NCBI GenBank assembly: GCA_017399665.1
Contig: JAFQBR010000092.1
Span: 1 to 6,085 of the forward strand
Direction of reading: 5' to 3'
DNA length: 6,085 nt
From: Clostridia bacterium
Lineage (GTDB): Bacteria; Bacillota_A; Clostridia; Christensenellales; Borkfalkiaceae
Part shown: one piece after another, positions 1-6,085 of the stretch
How positions within the stretch are numbered: position 1 is the first letter of the stretch
Layout of the letters: every line of letters begins with the position of its first letter
Program-made: the position numbers and the translations under genes
The notes under the pieces: generated by a model
What the model was told of the DNA's origin: nothing
Databases searched by the model: none
What the model saw: the letters and a program-made list of their open reading frames with translations, nothing else

Positions 1-1367
1 GTGGAATGACTTTATACAGTAAAGGTGCAAAAATATCTTTAACCCCTGTTGGTGATGCATTCGGTACATATATGATTAAGAAAAAGCGCATATTGTTACT
101 AATTTTTATGGGCATTTTTCTTGGATTTGTTATTACTGTGGCGGAACCAGATTTAAGCGTTTTAGGTGAACAATTAGGAAGTATTAAATGGACTTTAATT
201 ATTACAATTGCTTTAGGCGTTGGCGTCTTTTTAGCAATTTCCTTATTAAAAACCTTACTTAAACTTGATTTCTCATTTTTAATCATTTGTCTTTATGCAG
301 TTGTATTTTTAATAGCCCTGTTTGTGGACAATAAATATCTAGGTCTTTGCTTTGATTCTGGCGGTGTTACCACAGGTGCATTAACCGTTCCATTTATTCT
401 TGCCCTTGGCGCATCTGTTGCCGGTGCTGTCGGTGGTAAAAATAAGTCCGAAAACAGCTTTGGTATGACGGCCATTTGTTCAGTTGGACCAATCATGATG
501 ACTATGTTGCTTTGCCTCATATTTAAGCCAACCGTTAACCCAGACATTACCCCTGAAAACGTAACAAACGTTACTTCCCTACTTATTCTTTACGGCGATA
601 AACTTTTACATACATTACTTGAAGTTTTACTTGCATTAGCCCCAATTGCCGTAGCTTTTTATCTTTTTAACGCATTTAGCTTTAAAATACCTAAAATCGA
701 GCTTTCAAGAATAACCATCGGTTTTCTATACACTTATTTTGGCTTATCGTTTTTTTTAACAGGTGTAAACGCCGCTTACATGGGAACTGGTTATTTTATT
801 GGACAAAGTTTAGGCAATCTTGATAATAAATGGATTTTGGTTGCAGTTGCTGCCTCAGTCGGTTTACTTATTATTTTGGCAGAGCCTGCAGTAAACGTTT
901 TAGTAAAACAAGTTGAAGAGGTTTCAAGTGGTACTATAAAGAAAAGGACTTTAAAAATTGCACTTGCAATTTCAATGGCGTTTGCCCTTGCAATTTCAAT
1001 GCTACGCATAATTTACGGTTTTTCTTTATTGTTAATTATAGGAATCGGATATATTATTGCATTAGGTCTTTCTTTTCTTGTCCCAAAAATTTATACAACG
1101 ATTGCATTTGACGCAGGCGGTGTTGCATCTGGACCGATGACAGCAACATTCCTTCTGCCCCTTGCAATTGGTGCAACAAAAGCAATATCCTCAGCAGACA
1201 ACATTCTTTCGTTAGCGTACGGACTTGTAGCAACCGTTGCACTTATGCCGTTAATTACTATTCAGCTTTTGGGCTTTACCGGTAAACTTAAAAGAAAATA
1301 CGTTGAGCATAAAAATGCTCAACTTATTAGCAAAATCAATAAAGAAGATATTATTGAATTTGAATAA
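1..1367 (+). CDS. DUF1538-family polytopic membrane protein, 5'-truncated by the window edge
   Basis: Putative transporter or channel of unknown substrate in the cytoplasmic membrane. At least ten hydrophobic segments are visible. Numbering from the ATG at position 6, two homologous halves can be seen. The first has an AEP motif at residues 46-48 and FDSGGVTTG at 116-124. The second has AEP at 292-294 and FDAGGVASG at 368-376. These motifs are the hallmark of the DUF1538 family and indicate an internal duplication. The second half has a full leading helix (about 236-256, with FFLTG at its end) for which the first half has no counterpart. The frame is also open to base 1, so the ATG at 6 is probably an internal Met and the real start lies upstream. 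The charged C-terminal tail (about 427-453) is likely cytoplasmic. Two PII-like genes follow 17 bases downstream, suggesting that PII proteins control this membrane protein. Family assignment is confident; function is unknown. Confidence 0.85.
   Translation, partial: GMTLYSKGAKISLTPVGDAFGTYMIKKKRILLLIFMGIFLGFVITVAEPDLSVLGEQLGSIKWTLIITIALGVGVFLAISLLKTLLKLDFSFLIICLYAVVFLIALFVDNKYLGLCFDSGGVTTGALTVPFILALGASVAGAVGGKNKSENSFGMTAICSVGPIMMTMLLCLIFKPTVNPDITPENVTNVTSLLILYGDKLLHTLLEVLLALAPIAVAFYLFNAFSFKIPKIELSRITIGFLYTYFGLSFFLTGVNAAYMGTGYFIGQSLGNLDNKWILVAVAASVGLLIILAEPAVNVLVKQVEEVSSGTIKKRTLKIALAISMAFALAISMLRIIYGFSLLLIIGIGYIIALGLSFLVPKIYTTIAFDAGGVASGPMTATFLLPLAIGATKAISSADNILSLAYGLVATVALMPLITIQLLGFTGKLKRKYVEHKNAQLISKINKEDIIEFE
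1302..1323 (+). other. Perfect 9-bp hairpin inside the 3' end of the DUF1538 gene
   Basis: GTTGAGCAT, the loop AAAA, then ATGCTCAAC: a perfect inverted repeat within coding sequence, 42 bases before the stop codon. It is followed by TTATTAG rather than a true uridine tract, so it is a poor intrinsic terminator. It could protect or define an mRNA end or partly attenuate transcription, changing the ratio of membrane protein to PII proteins. The structure is seen directly; the role is inferred. Confidence 0.55.
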
Positions 1368-1370
1368 AAC

Positions 1371-1377
1371 AAAGGAG
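1371..1377 (+). promoter_or_regulatory. Ribosome binding site of the first PII-like gene
   Basis: AAAGGAG lies seven bases before the ATG at 1385, immediately after the stop of the membrane protein gene. It fixes the start of the first PII-like gene. Confidence 0.85.
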
Positions 1378-1384
1378 TACTTAC

Positions 1385-1726
1385 ATGAATTCAAGCCAAA
1401 TAAAACTGCGTTGTCTTATAATTATTGCTAATCGCGGACTTGGCGATCCCATAAGTAATTTAGTTAAAGACTATGCTCACTTCCAATCAATAATTTTAGG
1501 TAGAGGTACTGCAAGTAGCGAAATCAAGGCTAAACTTGGCATATCAGAACCCGAAAAAGATATTATTTACTGTTTTATTGAAGAACATAACGTTAAATAT
1601 ATTTTTAAATTAATTGATGAAAACTTTGACTTTTCAAGAAAACATTTAGGAATTGCTATGACTATACCCGTTTCTTCGGTTGACGGGCTTACCTCTTTTA
1701 AAATTTTAACTGGAAAACACGATTAA
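1385..1726 (+). CDS. PII-like signalling protein, first paralog (B-loop altered)
   Basis: A 113-residue protein with the PII ferredoxin-like pattern: a first strand at about 7-15 (LRCLIIIAN), a helix, then GRGTAS at 39-44 leading into the T-loop region, LGIS at 51-54, a strand at 59-65, and a final strand around TIPVSSVDG at 93-101. PII proteins are trimers that sense nucleotides and metabolites and dock onto transporters or enzymes by the T-loop. The T-loop region lacks the uridylylation Tyr51 of GlnB/GlnK. The B-loop position, normally a glycine-rich nucleotide-binding turn, reads SRKHLGIA (84-91) without the PGxG seen in the neighbouring paralog, so ATP/ADP binding may be lost or changed. 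It sits between the DUF1538 gene and a second PII-like gene in a tight operon. PII superfamily membership is likely; ligand and target are unknown. Confidence 0.78.
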   Translation: MNSSQIKLRCLIIIANRGLGDPISNLVKDYAHFQSIILGRGTASSEIKAKLGISEPEKDIIYCFIEEHNVKYIFKLIDENFDFSRKHLGIAMTIPVSSVDGLTSFKILTGKHD

Positions 1727-1730
1727 GGAG
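1725..1730 (+). promoter_or_regulatory. Ribosome binding site of the second PII-like gene, overlapping the previous stop
   Basis: AAGGAG begins on the last two bases of the TAA stop (1724-1726) of the first PII-like gene and lies eight bases before the ATG at 1739. Termination and re-initiation are therefore very close, consistent with coordinated synthesis of the two paralogs. An out-of-frame ATG at 1734 is ignored. Confidence 0.8.
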
Positions 1731-1738
1731 AAAATGAT

Positions 1739-2053
1739 ATGGATAAAAACTATGAACTTATAGTTGCGATTGTAAATCACGGCTTTGAAGAAGAAGTTAT
1801 GTCTGCTGCAAGAGCTGCCGGTGCTAGAGGTGGTACCGTTTTCAATGCGAGAGGTACTGCAACGGCAGATGATGAAGTTAAATTTTTAGGAATTTCTTTA
1901 CATCCACATAAAGAAATTGTCTTCATTTTAACCCAACACGACAAAAAGAACGATATTATGCACGCCATAAAAGAAAAGGCTGGGCTTGCAACGCCGGGGT
2001 CAGGTATTTTATTTACCCTACCTGTTGAATCAGTTCTTGGTGTTGAATTTTAA
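1739..2053 (+). CDS. PII-like signalling protein, second paralog (B-loop intact)
   Basis: A 104-residue PII-family protein, slightly shorter than GlnB/GlnK (112). The first strand is YELIVAIVN (5-13). It is followed by a helix, GARGGTVFNARGT (28-40) entering the T-loop, LGIS at 50-53, a strand at 60-65, a helix, then the B-loop TPGSGI (85-90) and the closing strand LFTLPVESVLG (91-101). The glycine-rich B-loop suggests that nucleotide binding is possible. Tyr51 of classical GlnB/GlnK is absent, so uridylylylation-type control is not expected. It aligns with its upstream neighbour through the shared RGTA, LGIS and PV-SV-G elements, so the two are divergent duplicates that might form hetero-oligomers. 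It is the last gene of the DUF1538 operon and is followed by a hairpin terminator. The likely role is metabolic gating of the membrane protein, by analogy with GlnK-AmtB; this is inference. Confidence 0.85.
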   Translation: MDKNYELIVAIVNHGFEEEVMSAARAAGARGGTVFNARGTATADDEVKFLGISLHPHKEIVFILTQHDKKNDIMHAIKEKAGLATPGSGILFTLPVESVLGVEF

Positions 2054-2071
2054 TTATAATTATTAAGAAAT

Positions 2072-2112
2072 AAAAAAGGCTTTTGCACTTAAAACTGCAA
2101 ACGTCTTTTTTA
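2072..2112. terminator. Bidirectional intrinsic terminator between convergent operons
   Basis: The arms 2072-2087 (AAAAAAGGCTTTTGCA) and 2096-2111 (TGCAAACGTCTTTTTT) pair over 16 positions with one G-U pair and one mismatch, around the 8-base loop CTTAAAAC. The A-tract on one side and the T-tract on the other give a uridine run in both directions. It can therefore end the PII operon on the + strand and the ABC transporter operon on the - strand, whose stop is at 2130. Confidence 0.85.
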
Positions 2113-2129
2113 ATATTAAAAACAAAACG

Positions 2130-2984
2130 TTACAAAACCTTATTTAAAAATTCCTTTAGTCTTTGCGACTTTGGATTTGTAAAAATTTCTTTAGGTGTGC
2201 CTATTTCGGCAATCACCCCTTCATCCATAAAGACAACCTTATTAGAAACGTTTTTAGCAAATGCCATTTCGTGAGTAACAACTATCATTGTTATACCTTC
2301 CAAAGCTAAATCGCTCATTACGGATAAAACCTCACCAACCATCTCCGGATCTAGCGCGCTTGTAGGCTCGTCAAAAAGCAAAACGTCAGGATTCATTGCA
2401 AGTGCCCTAACAATTGCAACTCTCTGCTCTTGCCCGCCCGAAAGGGTTTTGGGATAAGAATTTGCTATATGCTCAAGTCCGACCTTTTTTAATAGTTCAA
2501 AGGCTTCTTTAGTGGCAACCTCTTTATCAATATTCTTTAATGAAACCGGAGCTAAAATAATATTTTCTAAAACTGTTAAATGTGGAAACAAATTAAAACG
2601 CTGAAAAACCATTCCCACTTTTTCTCTAAACTTATTTATTTTACTTTTTATTTGTCTATTAACTATCTTTTCATTTTTGGTTGCTGATTTAATTTCTTTT
2701 ACGGTTAAATCATAAGCATCGTCATCTTTTGTAAGATTTTTTAACTTATTAACAAGCTCATACGATTTGTTGCTAAAAATAACTTCATTTTCAAAAACTA
2801 TTTCACCACCAGAAGGCACTTCTAACAAATTTATACAACGCAAAAAGGTGGATTTACCGCAACCAGACGGACCAATAATTGAAATTACGTCACCCTTATT
2901 TACTTCAAGATTAACCCCTTTTAAAACCTCTTGATTTTCAAATGACTTATGTAAATTTTTAATTTCTATTAACCTACTTAACAT
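2130..2984 (-). CDS. Polar amino acid ABC importer, ATP-binding subunit
   Basis: The nucleotide-binding subunit of a polar amino acid uptake (PAAT/GlnQ-type) ABC transporter, which acts as a dimer on the cytoplasmic face of the permease. All catalytic motifs are visible: Walker [10 protein letters not shown] (38-46), Q-loop in [10 protein letters not shown] (126-135), signature LSGGQ (171-175), Walker B VLLFDE (191-196) with catalytic Glu196, D-loop SALD (199-202) and switch His228 (VTHEM). [12 protein letters not shown] is typical of amino acid importers. At 284 residues it exceeds the usual 240 or so, because of a Lys/Asp-rich insertion at about 72-117 between Walker A and the Q-loop. The ATG at 2984 overlaps the end of the permease gene by 11 bases and has AAAGGAG 11 bases upstream inside that gene, so the two are probably translationally coupled. 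The substrate cannot be assigned precisely. Confidence 0.95.
2634..2771 (-). other. Charged insertion in the ABC ATPase (about residues 72-117)
   Basis: Between the strand after Walker A ([12 protein letters not shown]) and the Q-loop (EKVGMVFQ), GlnQ-type ATPases usually have only some 10-15 residues. Here about 45 extra residues occur, rich in Lys, Asp, Glu and Asn and predicted mostly helical by eye. The catalytic motifs on both sides are intact, so this is an in-frame accessory segment and not a broken gene. Confidence 0.6.
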
Positions 2985-4497
2985 CGCGATTCATTCTCCT
3001 TTCAAACAGCTTAATCAGCCACGCAATAAATATTATTATCACTAAATAAATAAGAGCTAAAACGATATAAGGTATAAAATAGTCATACGTACTTTCTGCT
3101 ATTGCGGTAAAAGATCTAGTTAAATCGGTTACTGCAATTAGATTTGCAACCGAGGTTTCTTTTATTAAGGCAATAAATTCGTTTCCAAGTGTTGGGATTA
3201 CGTTCTTTACAGCTTGTGGTAAAACAATTTTAATCATTGTTTGAAGAAATGAAAATCCAAGTGCTCTACCAGCCTCCATCTGACCTTTATCTACAGAATT
3301 TATACCACTTCTAATTGCTTCAGCCATATATGCACTACTGTTCAAGCCATAAACAATAACAGCCTCTGCAACATAGCTTATATCTATTCCAAGAGCTGGG
3401 AAAATTGCAAAGTGACAAAGTAAAAGCTGAACAAGAATAGGCGTTCCACGAATGACCGTTACGTAGCCTTGCGTTAACGCTTTAAAAAATTTAATTACTC
3501 CGTTATCTGCAGGGGCAATTTTAACCGTTGCCAAAACCGCACCCAAAATAAAACCTATAATTAAACCTAAAATCGAAATAATAATAGTATTTTTAAGACC
3601 TTCTAGCGTTAATTTATAGCCATTCTGAATTATAAATTTATTATAAAACGCCTTAAGAGTTGAAGAGTTTAATGAATTAACAATTTCTTTTGCGGGTTGC
3701 ATATCTAAAACCACGGCGTCTAATTTACCATTAAGTAAATCTTTTATTGCAAGCGCGCCGGTCGTAAATCCAACAGGTGTAAGATTAGTAAAGCCCTCGT
3801 ACCCAAAACCACTATCGCCAGCAATATACATATAGCCCGTGGTGCCGTTTTGCATACCTATTTTATAATTTTTGTCTTTACTTTTTAAAACATTTTCGAC
3901 GTCAGCAGCATTGCTACAGCCATCAAATTCACTGTTATTTTCATTTAAAACTAAAACCTGTGAAGAAGTATAATACGAAATAGAAAAATCAACAACCTCA
4001 AGCCTGTCATTACTTACGGTAAGTCCAGCCATAGCTAAATCACAGTTTCCATTTTGAACGCTACCTATTACCCCTGAAAAGTCCATGTCCTCTACGTATA
4101 AGACTTTTCCTATACTCTTGGCAAATAAATGAGCTAATTCAATGTCTATACCAGCAAATTTATTACCGTTATAATATTCAAAGGGTGGAAAGTAAGCATT
4201 CGTTGCCAAAATAAGGCATCCCTCTTTATTCGTAGGATTAAGATAAGTAAAGGTATTTCCACCTCCAAAATAAGAGTTAATTATATTTTCTAACTCTCCA
4301 GTAGCTTTTAACTCTGTTATAAAATTGTTTACCTGTTCTTTAAGTTGACTATTTTCTTTTGCTAACGCTATCGCATAAGGCTCAGAGGTAAGCTCGATTG
4401 CAGATACCTTTGCTTTAACCTTGCTGGTTGTATTCGAGCACCCAAAAGAACTAACTGTTAATAATAAAATTAGTAGTGTAAATAATATTTTTTTCAA
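2974..4497 (-). CDS. Fused lipoprotein substrate-binding domain and amino acid ABC permease
   Basis: A 507-residue chain, taking TTG at 4497 as start, that joins the extracellular binding domain and membrane permease of a polar amino acid importer, as in GlnP. Residues 1-19 are a lipoprotein-type signal ending SSFGC with Cys20 as the likely lipid-anchor site; the lipobox is imperfect because Phe sits at -2. Residues 34-77 resemble the C-terminal tail of a family 3 binding protein ([12 protein letters not shown] onward). Residues 94-276 form the two lobes: PPFEY, Arg165 in SNDRLE for the ligand carboxylate, GTTG 218-221, and Asp265 in LDAVVLD for the amino group. The HisM-type permease spans about 283-500, with the EAA loop EAGRALGFS (408-416) and LPQA (426-429). 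The ATPase gene overlaps its end. The start is chosen because the longer TTG at 4560 lies in the -35 box, while 4497 has AAGGA nine bases upstream and begins a proper signal peptide. Confidence 0.92.
4267..4398 (-). other. Displaced C-terminal tail of the substrate-binding domain (circular permutation)
   Basis: Codons 34-77 of the fused permease protein encode [14 protein letters not shown], then a helix ([19 protein letters not shown]) and NSYFGG. In ordinary family 3 binding proteins this pattern (EPY-IAV-K, paired helices, K-YFG) is the very end of the domain. Here it precedes the N-lobe, and the same tail is missing after Asp265, where the chain runs straight into the permease ([11 protein letters not shown]). 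The order is seen directly; circular permutation is the simplest reading. Confidence 0.7.
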
Positions 4498-4506
4498 ATT
4501 AAAAAG

Positions 4507-4511
4507 TCCTT
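4507..4511 (-). promoter_or_regulatory. Ribosome binding site that decides the TTG start of the ABC permease gene
   Basis: On the - strand AAGGA (within GAAGGAC) is nine bases before the TTG at 4497. It lies downstream of the promoter at 4532-4560, so translation must begin after it. Confidence 0.75.
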
Positions 4512-4531
4512 CATTTTTTCGCACGGCGCTT

Positions 4532-4560
4532 ATTGTAACATTTAAGATTTTTAATGTCAA
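4532..4560 (-). promoter_or_regulatory. Consensus sigma-A promoter of the ABC transporter operon
   Basis: On the - strand: -35 TTGACA (4560-4555, perfect), a 17-base spacer, and -10 TACAAT (4537-4532), preceded by TGT, which gives an extended -10. Transcription would begin near 4525, about 28 bases before the TTG start. The DNA just upstream (4561-4600) is extremely AT-rich, as for an UP element. The match is strong enough that the operon could be well expressed unless repressed. Confidence 0.85.
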
Positions 4561-4572
4561 ACAAAATTGTAT

Positions 4573-4589
4573 AAATATTGAAAATATTT
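4573..4589. repeat. AT-rich dyad just upstream of the ABC operon promoter
   Basis: AAATATT, GAA, AATATTT: a perfect 7-bp inverted repeat 13 bases upstream of the -35 box. It could be a repressor or activator site, or simply low-complexity AT-rich DNA acting as an UP element. Confidence 0.3.
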
Positions 4590-4618
4590 GAATATTTTTT
4601 GCTAAGATTTTTATTTTT

Positions 4619-4633
4619 ATGAATAATATTCAT
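4619..4633. repeat. Inverted repeat ATGAATA-A-TATTCAT, possible operator
   Basis: A perfect 7-bp inverted repeat with a single central base, about 59 bases upstream of the -35 box of the ABC operon. Its outer half-sites (TGAAT and ATTCA) resemble an ArgR/AhrC box, but the centre is one base shorter than that consensus. It may be an operator for amino acid control; low confidence. Confidence 0.35.
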
Positions 4634-4659
4634 TTTCTGCATTTTTTTAATGTATAAAT

Positions 4660-4690
4660 GAAAAAAAATAAGACGGAAAACTTCCGCCCC
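4660..4690 (-). terminator. Intrinsic terminator of the YfcC-like gene
   Basis: Read on the - strand, GGCGGAA (4688-4682), the loop GTT, and TTCCGTC (4678-4672) form a 7-bp stem with one G-U pair. It is followed directly by TTATTTTTTTT (4671-4661). It lies about 50 bases after the stop of the carrier gene and isolates it from the downstream ABC operon. Confidence 0.88.
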
Positions 4691-4703
4691 ATTTTATATT
4701 ATA

Positions 4704-4717
4704 TATTAACGTTAATA
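4704..4717. repeat. 14-bp perfect palindrome after the carrier gene
   Basis: TATTAACGTTAATA reads the same on both strands and lies between the stop codon of the YfcC-like gene (4738) and its terminator. No function is evident; a chance AT-rich palindrome is possible. Confidence 0.3.
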
Positions 4718-4737
4718 AATACCTTAAGCTTATAATT

Positions 4738-6085
4738 TTAACAATACCCAATTGCTGTTGCAAACCATAATATTAAAATTGTAGAGGCAAAAACAAAAAT
4801 TTGTAATGGCCAAGTCCAACGCACCCATTTACCGTATGAAACGCCGGCTATTGATAATCCTATAAGCAATACGGGATTTGTGGGCAATATTACGTCCGTG
4901 AATCCGTCAGCTATACAATAAGTAAATATAACAAGAGCGGGTGAAATGCCCAATGTTTGACAAATAGGCAATACTATAGGCATAATAAGCATAATTTTTG
5001 CTGACGCAGATCCAATGAATACCTGCAAGAAAAGTATTAAAAGATAAATTAGAAGTATACAAACAAACGGGCTTTTATCTTTTAAACTTTCAATAACGAA
5101 ATTCATTATTGTATCTATAATATTACTTTCCGTCATTACAAGCTTAACCGATGACGCAAATGCGATCATAACTATAGCAGGTAACATTGCTACTGCCCCG
5201 GATATAATATGTTTAAAGACATCTTTTTTGCATTCACAGACACACAATCCTGAAATTATACCAGCAATTAAGAATGATGCGGCTAAAATAGGTATTGCAT
5301 AGTCGGAAATTGCGGAAATGCTTGCAACTAAAATTAACACTACTAATTGAATTAAAAAGAAAGCTGCAAAAACTTTAAAAACATGCTTATCATGTTGGCT
5401 TTCAGCTAAAGAATTTTCAAAATTAAGACTAGCAAGTTTTTCTTTATCTAAGGCATAGGTCAATGATTTTTGAGGATTACTTGCTATCCTTTTTGTGTGA
5501 ATTAATAAGAAAGCGCATACGGCAATATAGATAAATACAAAAAATGCAGCTCTTAACCAAAGACCATCGAAAATTGCAACGCCTGCAATTTTGGAGGCTA
5601 AACCAACTGAAAAAGGATTTGTAATCGCTGAAGAAAAGCCAAAGCATGCAGCCAACAAACAAACACCAAGCCCCGTTAAGGTATCAAACCCCATTGAAAG
5701 CATAAACACGACAACAATTGGTATTAGTGTTGCAAGTTCTTCAAACATACCAAAGAAACTACCAAAAAGCATGAACACGAATACTGCAATACAAACAACA
5801 AGCTTTTTGCTATTTACAAAACGGCTAACGATTTTACCAATAAAAATCTTTACTCCACCCGTTTTTTCCATAAGGTTAAAGACCCCACTCATAATAAGTA
5901 AAAATAGACTAATCATTATTATAGTTAAGGCGTCTTCAGATGCAAATACTCTAAAAGGTGCTGTAATTACTCGCCAAAAGGCAATACCTTTTACTTGCCC
6001 TACAACATACGTCCCAGGTATAATTACTCCTTTATGGTCGCGTGTGAATGAACCTTGAGGAATAAAATAAGACAAGCAACCGCTA
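4738..6085 (-). CDS. YfcC/DcuC-family secondary carrier, 5'-truncated by the window edge
   Basis: A polytopic cytoplasmic membrane carrier of the YfcC family (DcuC-type, ion transporter superfamily), whose members are predicted to move amino acids or C4-dicarboxylates. Numbering from the TTG at 6075, these family features are visible: YFIPQGSF and a loop ending VIIPGTY (3-23), typical of the segment after the first helix; FGMFEE (108-113); a first re-entrant-type motif ITNPFSVGLA (151-160); GSASAKIMLIMPIVLP (355-370); and a second motif ADGFTDVILPTNPV (389-402). A hydrophilic loop at about 184-230 separates the two halves. The TTG at 6075 is probably an internal Leu: the frame stays open to the edge and the first membrane helix is missing. 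About 25-35 residues are therefore likely outside. It has its own terminator and appears monocistronic at this end. Substrate is unknown. Confidence 0.88.
   Translation of the reverse strand, partial: SGCLSYFIPQGSFTRDHKGVIIPGTYVVGQVKGIAFWRVITAPFRVFASEDALTIIMISLFLLIMSGVFNLMEKTGGVKIFIGKIVSRFVNSKKLVVCIAVFVFMLFGSFFGMFEELATLIPIVVVFMLSMGFDTLTGLGVCLLAACFGFSSAITNPFSVGLASKIAGVAIFDGLWLRAAFFVFIYIAVCAFLLIHTKRIASNPQKSLTYALDKEKLASLNFENSLAESQHDKHVFKVFAAFFLIQLVVLILVASISAISDYAIPILAASFLIAGIISGLCVCECKKDVFKHIISGAVAMLPAIVMIAFASSVKLVMTESNIIDTIMNFVIESLKDKSPFVCILLIYLLILFLQVFIGSASAKIMLIMPIVLPICQTLGISPALVIFTYCIADGFTDVILPTNPVLLIGLSIAGVSYGKWVRWTWPLQIFVFASTILILWFATAIGYC

Follow-up and report, generated by a model that had tools for sequence, protein, structure and literature searches.

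A predicted circularly permuted family 3 substrate-binding domain fused to the permease of an amino-acid importer in Clostridia

A 6,085 bp stretch of DNA from a Clostridia bacterium of the Borkfalkiaceae (assembly GCA_017399665.1, contig JAFQBR010000092.1, positions 1 to 6,085), hereafter called the window, carries on its minus strand a gene in which a family 3 substrate-binding domain is fused to a permease of the ATP-binding cassette (ABC) type (Table 1). An earlier note on this DNA, made from the letters alone, had claimed that the binding domain in the stretch 4398-3670, which corresponds to residues 34-276 of the 507-aa protein, is circularly permuted. The domain passes the curated cut-off of PF00497 SBP_bac_3 (102.8 versus 26.4 bits), with the score split over two stretches, while the permease domain scores 87.1 bits on PF00528 (cut-off 26.4) and 66.1 bits on TIGR01726 (curated cut-off 42.2), and the product of the ATPase gene 123.4 bits on PF00005 (cut-off 25). 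The tail comprises the second hinge strand and the two helices which in normal order close lobe 1. In the canonical PF00497 order this tail follows lobe 2; here it stands before lobe 1. The binding domain is PF00497 by its sequence and non-canonical by its chain order, and the permutation is hidden from profile searches because both pieces match the same model. In all 45 aligned sequences Cys20 of the lipobox is invariant, as are Leu36, Glu39, and Tyr41 in the tail, and also Arg165 and Asp265; the latter two are matched in AncQR by an Arg and an Asp, and we take them to be conserved residues of the family 3 amino-acid site.

Table 1. Features of the fused gene and of the adjacent ATPase gene, in positions of the window
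Feature	Positions	Strand	Remarks
Whole gene, permuted substrate-binding domain fused to permease	2974..4497	-	507 aa, TTG start
Signal peptide and lipobox	4438..4497	-	last residue Cys20 (4440-4438)
Permuted tail, residues 28-78	4264..4416	-	profile score, AncQR alignment, AlphaFold2 (AF2) model
New linker, residues 79-91	4225..4263	-	joins old C-terminus to old N-terminus
N part of lobe 1, first hinge strand and lobe 2, residues 92-275	3673..4224	-	
Lobe 2-to-permease junction, 20 residues	3613..3672	-	stop and new start codon here in split members
Permease domain, His/Glu/Gln/Arg/opine type, residues 296-503	2989..3612	-	PF00528, TIGR01726
ATP-binding subunit	2130..2984	-	PF00005; open reading frame (ORF) overlaps end of permease gene by 11 bases

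The order of the segments was analyzed by alignment to proteins of known structure and by rotation of the domain. In a phmmer search of PDB sequences residues 92-273 of the query matched residues 9-175 of AncQR (4zv1) and residues 30-78 matched residues 184-232 of the same chain, i.e., in swapped order (i-Evalue of the tail, 0.004). The tandem GlnP (6h30) aligned without reordering, with residues 41-265 of the query on residues 187-393 of the chain, a segment that spans the joint between its two substrate-binding domains, SBD1 and SBD2. On a profile of 221 positions, trained on 42 binding proteins with normal order from the loci fetched, the window protein in its native order gave separate matches in swapped order for the core (158.1 bits) and the tail (39.6 bits). 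Moving the tail behind the core raised the best score from 158.1 bits to a single alignment of 210.0 bits over profile positions 2-220, and a scan of cut points in steps of five residues peaked at 210 bits for cuts 55-60 of the 247-residue domain, which is within the linker. The tail by itself scored 45.1 bits on this profile, where 1000 shuffles reached at most 6.9. Neither the window protein nor any other of the 120 proteins with the layout tail-CORE-perm showed a second tail (>8 bits) between lobe 2 and the permease. Both central claims of the earlier note, that the tail has been placed ahead of the N-lobe by circular permutation and that it is missing after lobe 2, are borne out by these comparisons.

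Relatives of the window protein are permuted at four cut sites, one of them seen once. In type A, to which the window protein belongs, the tail lies ahead of lobe 1 and it is the second hinge crossing that is cut. The order in type B (L030, L037, L040, L043, L047, and L054) is second half of lobe 2, tail, lobe 1, first half of lobe 2, and type C (L077, L078, and others) has the same order with the cut about 20 residues earlier; in both types the old lobe 1 would become a continuous, inserted lobe. A fourth cut site, again in lobe 2 and within its second half, was found in a single instance (L218:1498-2364). Rotation to normal order produced a gain in 119 of 120 type A proteins (median 51 bits), in all 119 type B proteins (median 92 bits), and in all 49 type C proteins (median 136.5 bits), the B and C counts omitting one coreC-tail-CORE protein and 71 overlapping forms which are discussed below. 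The same rotation of normal-order proteins gave no gain in any of 42 (median -59 bits), a result which is informative for its sign only, since these controls also trained the profile. A census of layouts was made with normal-order-derived profiles on ORFs from the first 228 loci that have at least 150 residues and contain an N segment, after removal of exact duplicates. Permuted layouts were nT-nN-nC (79, plus one fused) and nC-nT-nN (34, plus four fused), and the normal order nN-nC-nT was present in 66 plus nine fused; the rest comprised a triple tandem, a tandem gene represented by three rows, and six rows of other kinds, namely two nC-nT-nC-nN and four layouts seen once each, L218 among these. 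It should be noted that the loci were chosen by our own queries, so the census numbers are not frequencies.

The AF2 model of the window protein, run as a monomer, has a mean predicted local distance difference test (pLDDT) score of 80.7, with blocks of 84-93 across residues 31-80. Its N-terminal segment is modeled as a long strand (29-41) and two helices (50-66 and 68-77), as expected of the tail. For a type B relative the model reached a pLDDT of 92.0. Coverage by the fold aligner was mainly over residues 90-279, with a few rows starting at 47-51, and the monomeric run leaves the choice between same-chain and swapped packing of the tail to other evidence. As regards the lipid anchor, which the earlier note had put on lobe 1, the model and the family fold would place it at the lobe-2 end of the second hinge strand and not in the body of lobe 1.

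The distribution of the permuted order was addressed with the best 120 of 1360 matches of a homologue search, which together with the window make 121 proteins. The layout tail-CORE-perm was found in 120 of these, i.e., in the window and in 119 of the best 120 homologues, at identities of 42-91%; the closest is 91% identical over its full length. This agrees with the earlier suggestion that the arrangement may be a family trait. The odd one, P0011 (tail-CORE-tail-CORE), is a single record and was set aside. The matches listed are fused probably because the ranking prefers full-length matches: across 73 type A loci, which cover all type A lineages and some of which contain the same gene, the binding protein and the adjoining permease are separate genes in 72 and fused in just one (L019). 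In each of seven split junctions inspected the stop codon of the binding-protein gene precedes the start of the permease. The permutation is thus the trait while the fusion varies, and the latter does not define the family. Type A occurs as two genes in the named strains Acetivibrio mesophilus N2K1 (L042) and Faecalicatena contorta ET52 (L079), and Mordavella massiliensis (L080) is a further named carrier of type A. The source names given for a few such proteins are ordinary binding-protein names.

Permuted genes were confirmed by profile in at least 37 distinct genomes in two largely overlapping draws of 196 genomes from the class of a Lachnospiraceae genome, a lower bound limited to matches listed whose DNA was fetched. 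Within the family of Acetitomaculum ruminis a type C match, identified by its query range, was present among the matches listed in 51 of 250 genomes (counted by eye), and in 17 of the 51 it lies in an open frame of 501-556 residues with no stop within the match. As frame length can span the stop between two genes (it is 502 for adjacent genes of 266 and 233 residues in G008), the count of fused type C proteins was limited to three whose DNA was fetched (L224, L225, and L227) and to L078. With the same bait, the matches listed from 151 genomes of the class of Enterococcus raffinosus start at or beyond query residue 149, which is the normal order; the exceptions among them were three tandem proteins, one type A protein in G676 (confirmed at locus L231), and a row from G746 with an internal stop. 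The class of Shewanella benthica (143 genomes) contributed 20 listed matches, and the two that are permuted (L229 and L230) come from the same genome. Since the bait probably stems from Clostridia, the rates cannot be compared with one another.

The linker between tail and core is 13 residues long in the window protein and has a median of 15 (range 13-23) in the 120 fused proteins. The gap from core to permease measures 20 residues in the window protein; median gaps are 25 residues for fused type A (120 proteins), 29 for normal-order fusions (nine proteins), and 34.5 for type C fusions (four proteins), other profile ends having been used for the last two groups; as the difference is modest, we make no mechanical claim for the fusion as a short rigid joint. 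A simple pattern recognized a lipobox in 78 of 80 proteins of type A and in 35 of 38 of type B or C, but the lipobox was dropped as a mark of permuted forms since 67 of 75 normal-order proteins also carry one. The five misses include L009, in which the start is masked, L163, which resembles a plain signal peptide, L212 and L224, which have an N-terminal hydrophobic segment, and L227, in which a Cys after the hydrophobic stretch was overlooked by the pattern. In L212 (102-1109), a type A permuted protein, the hydrophobic segment is in the place of the lipobox.

An origin of the permuted order from a tandem array of binding domains would fit the sequence of the window. Tandem and triple-tandem relatives do exist (L033 and L222). 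L222 (1413-4331) encodes three complete normal-order binding domains in tandem with one permease in 973 aa, while L230 (974-4093) encodes a 1040-aa binding-protein/permease in which the segments C-T-N occur three times before the permease, i.e., an out-of-phase array; a separate type C protein (L229:1273-2181) is encoded in the same genome. Among 120 matches of the search with type C, 58 proteins had the layout coreC-tail-CORE-tail and 13 had CORE-tail-coreN. These overlapping forms might be taken for intermediates. The metagenome proteins with duplicated segments are mostly about 380-405 aa long. In P0243 and P0250 the C-terminal halves are, by eye, nearly identical while the N-terminal halves are different. 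The overlapping forms are probably chimeric contigs between permuted and normal paralogues, and were set aside as intermediates on account of the shared C-terminal halves and of the genome search described below; P0234 (coreC-tail-CORE), a single record, was set aside as well. The tandem origin proposed in the earlier note fits the collinearity of the window protein with the end of SBD1 plus SBD2 of GlnP 6h30; no intermediate was seen in the 250 genomes searched with one of the overlapping forms.

The number of origins was analyzed on trees in which order changes can be gains or losses. The tree of rotated binding domains requires 6 order changes and the independent permease tree 7 (93 rows), where the former omits three rows without a usable rotated domain, one of which is represented by its two domains instead. 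The number required is 13 on a wider quick tree (144 rows, with near-copies removed), at least 6 of these changes being forced by starred branches. Approximately unbiased (AU) tests rejected a single clade of all permuted rows (p 0.0008; 27 of 51 chosen rows) and with it a single origin of all permuted forms. They also rejected a clade uniting the window family with B, C, and A2 (p 0.00035), the grouping of L137 with L142 (p 2.5e-5), and, in a cystine-like subset (28 of the 144 rows), the groupings of all nine permuted rows (p 1.4e-7), of L137, L192, and L210 (p 0.0004), and of L137 with L192 (p 0.0037). Not rejected were the L142/L220 group in the cystine-like subset (p 0.247) and a single origin of C plus A2 (p 0.126) or of type B (p 0.141). 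Apart from the test of all permuted rows the groups were named after viewing the quick trees, which weakens those p values. These results show more than one origin among the permuted relatives. The normal order was taken as ancestral because only tandem GlnP matched across a permuted joint as one stretch; in three PDB searches no other chain among the matches listed does so. Permuted and normal-order relatives are up to 64.5% identical after rotation, and a clear pair is formed by permuted L146 (the same gene as L137) and normal-order L193, the grouping of L193 with L137 having a support of 100/99. L021 and L026, from Helicobacter rodentium and H. magdeburgensis, have the normal order and group with the permuted family of the window with a support of 84 in the permease tree, 80 in the binding-domain tree, and 95 in the wider quick tree.

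Other features of the neighborhood were noted. Between Walker A and the Q-loop the ATPase is longer than usual by about 40 residues (77 versus 37); at this spacing L001 has a longer and different insert (104) and L021 an intermediate length (64). Positions 3-2053 of the window encode a DUF1538 membrane protein in which the UmpA and UmpB models match in one chain, both below their cut-offs, and this gene is followed by two small genes, the second P-II-like. Positions 4738-6075 encode a carrier of the DcuC family, with a score on the NCBIfam model YfcC below the cut-off.

The closest precedent is TpMglB-2 (Tp0684) of Treponema pallidum, which passages of PMC4990184 describe as a solved, naturally permuted glucose-binding lipoprotein ("Type Ic / Cluster Bc") and thus, like the window protein, a permuted binding lipoprotein of an ABC importer. 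The same passages report this type of permutation also in Gram-positive gut bacteria and suggest a possible link with tethering. TpMglB-2 has a sugar-binding Type I fold, another cut site, and an added fourth crossing (PMC4990184), whereas the family of the window is PF00497, has its cut either at the second hinge crossing or within lobe 2, and has, by the tree tests, more than one origin; the window protein is moreover fused to a permease and does not share the Type I fold and sequence. GlnPQ of Lactococcus lactis, as set out in passages of PMC8025302, has SBD1 and SBD2 in tandem, joined by a linker of 14 residues and fused to the permease behind a normal tail by a linker of 19 residues. The two systems share the position of the binding domains N-terminal to the permease, the separate ATPase, and a similar length of the linker from tail to next core. 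GlnP has two complete normal-order domains, whereas the window protein has one core and one tail and is built like the end of GlnP SBD1 plus SBD2 without its tail. Ordinary family 3 proteins (GlnH, HisJ, ArtJ, and AncQR) are alike in sequence, in the aligned Arg and Asp, and in the core fold, but differ in having the chain order lobe 1, lobe 2, lobe 1 tail. No report of a natural permutation in family 3 binding proteins was found among the papers listed in searches of the open PMC literature, subscription journals being outside the scope of this search.

We consider it highly probable that the gene joins the permease of an amino-acid ABC importer to a functional permuted family 3 domain derived from a tandem array. 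The product would be the membrane part of the importer, with the ATPase supplied by the next, overlapping gene. The chain would be open at the point of its usual return from lobe 2 to lobe 1, and the tail would fold back on its own lobe 1, so that the Venus-flytrap would close on an amino acid as usual. Each lobe would be uninterrupted, a single covalent hinge crossing would connect the two, and the lipid anchor and the permease would both tether the domain at the lobe-2 side of the hinge rather than on lobe 1. As for its origin, the front part of the first domain and the back part of the last may have been lost from a GlnP-like array, which would have shifted its phase. Against this interpretation, one of the 120 type A proteins shows no gain on rotation (-0.2 bits), and no genome yielded a clean half-way form: a search of the 250 genomes of the Acetitomaculum ruminis family, in most of which at most seven candidates were scored, produced no full-length match (E <= 1e-60) to one overlapping form.

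The lack of a half-way form among the 250 genomes would suit a different origin, with the tail moved or re-acquired from another binding-protein gene and no phase shift of an array, and acquisition from a different gene is considered for TpMglB-2 in passages of PMC4990184. We regard such an origin as unlikely, given the collinearity of the sequence with the SBD1-SBD2 joint of GlnP and the existence of out-of-phase and triple arrays. Less probable still is a domain swap between the subunits of a homodimeric permease, the N-terminal tail of one packing on the binding domain of its partner. In the family 3 fold the old N- and C-termini lie close together, and a linker of 13-23 residues is enough for closure within one chain; in addition, the separate-gene members, which are free of the permease, have the same order. 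That the tail is an idle remnant of a lost first domain, the domain working tail-less, is given some plausibility by truncated and single-lobe structures of TmArgBP in the PDB (titles of 6ggv and 6gpc), but we think this very improbable as the tail is conserved, with its three invariant residues, and is N-terminal in the window and in 119 of the best 120 homologues. Probably chimeric contigs do occur among the relatives, and an assembly chimera or frameshift could in principle have created the layout of the window as well; the chance of this is negligible, an artefact being refuted by the repetition of the layout in 119 other proteins and by the two-gene versions in A. mesophilus N2K1 and F. 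contorta ET52.

A permuted, tandem-derived domain fused to its permease thus remains our preferred explanation for the window. A broader and distinctly tentative proposal is that in the family 3 proteins of gut Clostridia repeated phase shifts of tandem arrays open the domains at the hinge and at three sites in lobe 2, and that the reordered forms are kept because they shift the tether off lobe 1, either to the hinge or to lobe 2. If this is true, the family would amount to a natural "permutation scan" in which the shift of the tether changes which lobe is held and which one moves. In the literature searched, natural permutation of a binding domain is found in one solved sugar-binding family; here it recurs in an amino-acid-binding family, at several cut sites and with fairly close normal-order relatives. 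Such relatives would provide matched natural pairs in which the position of the tether and the number of hinge crossings may be compared with closure of the domain and delivery of the substrate to the permease.
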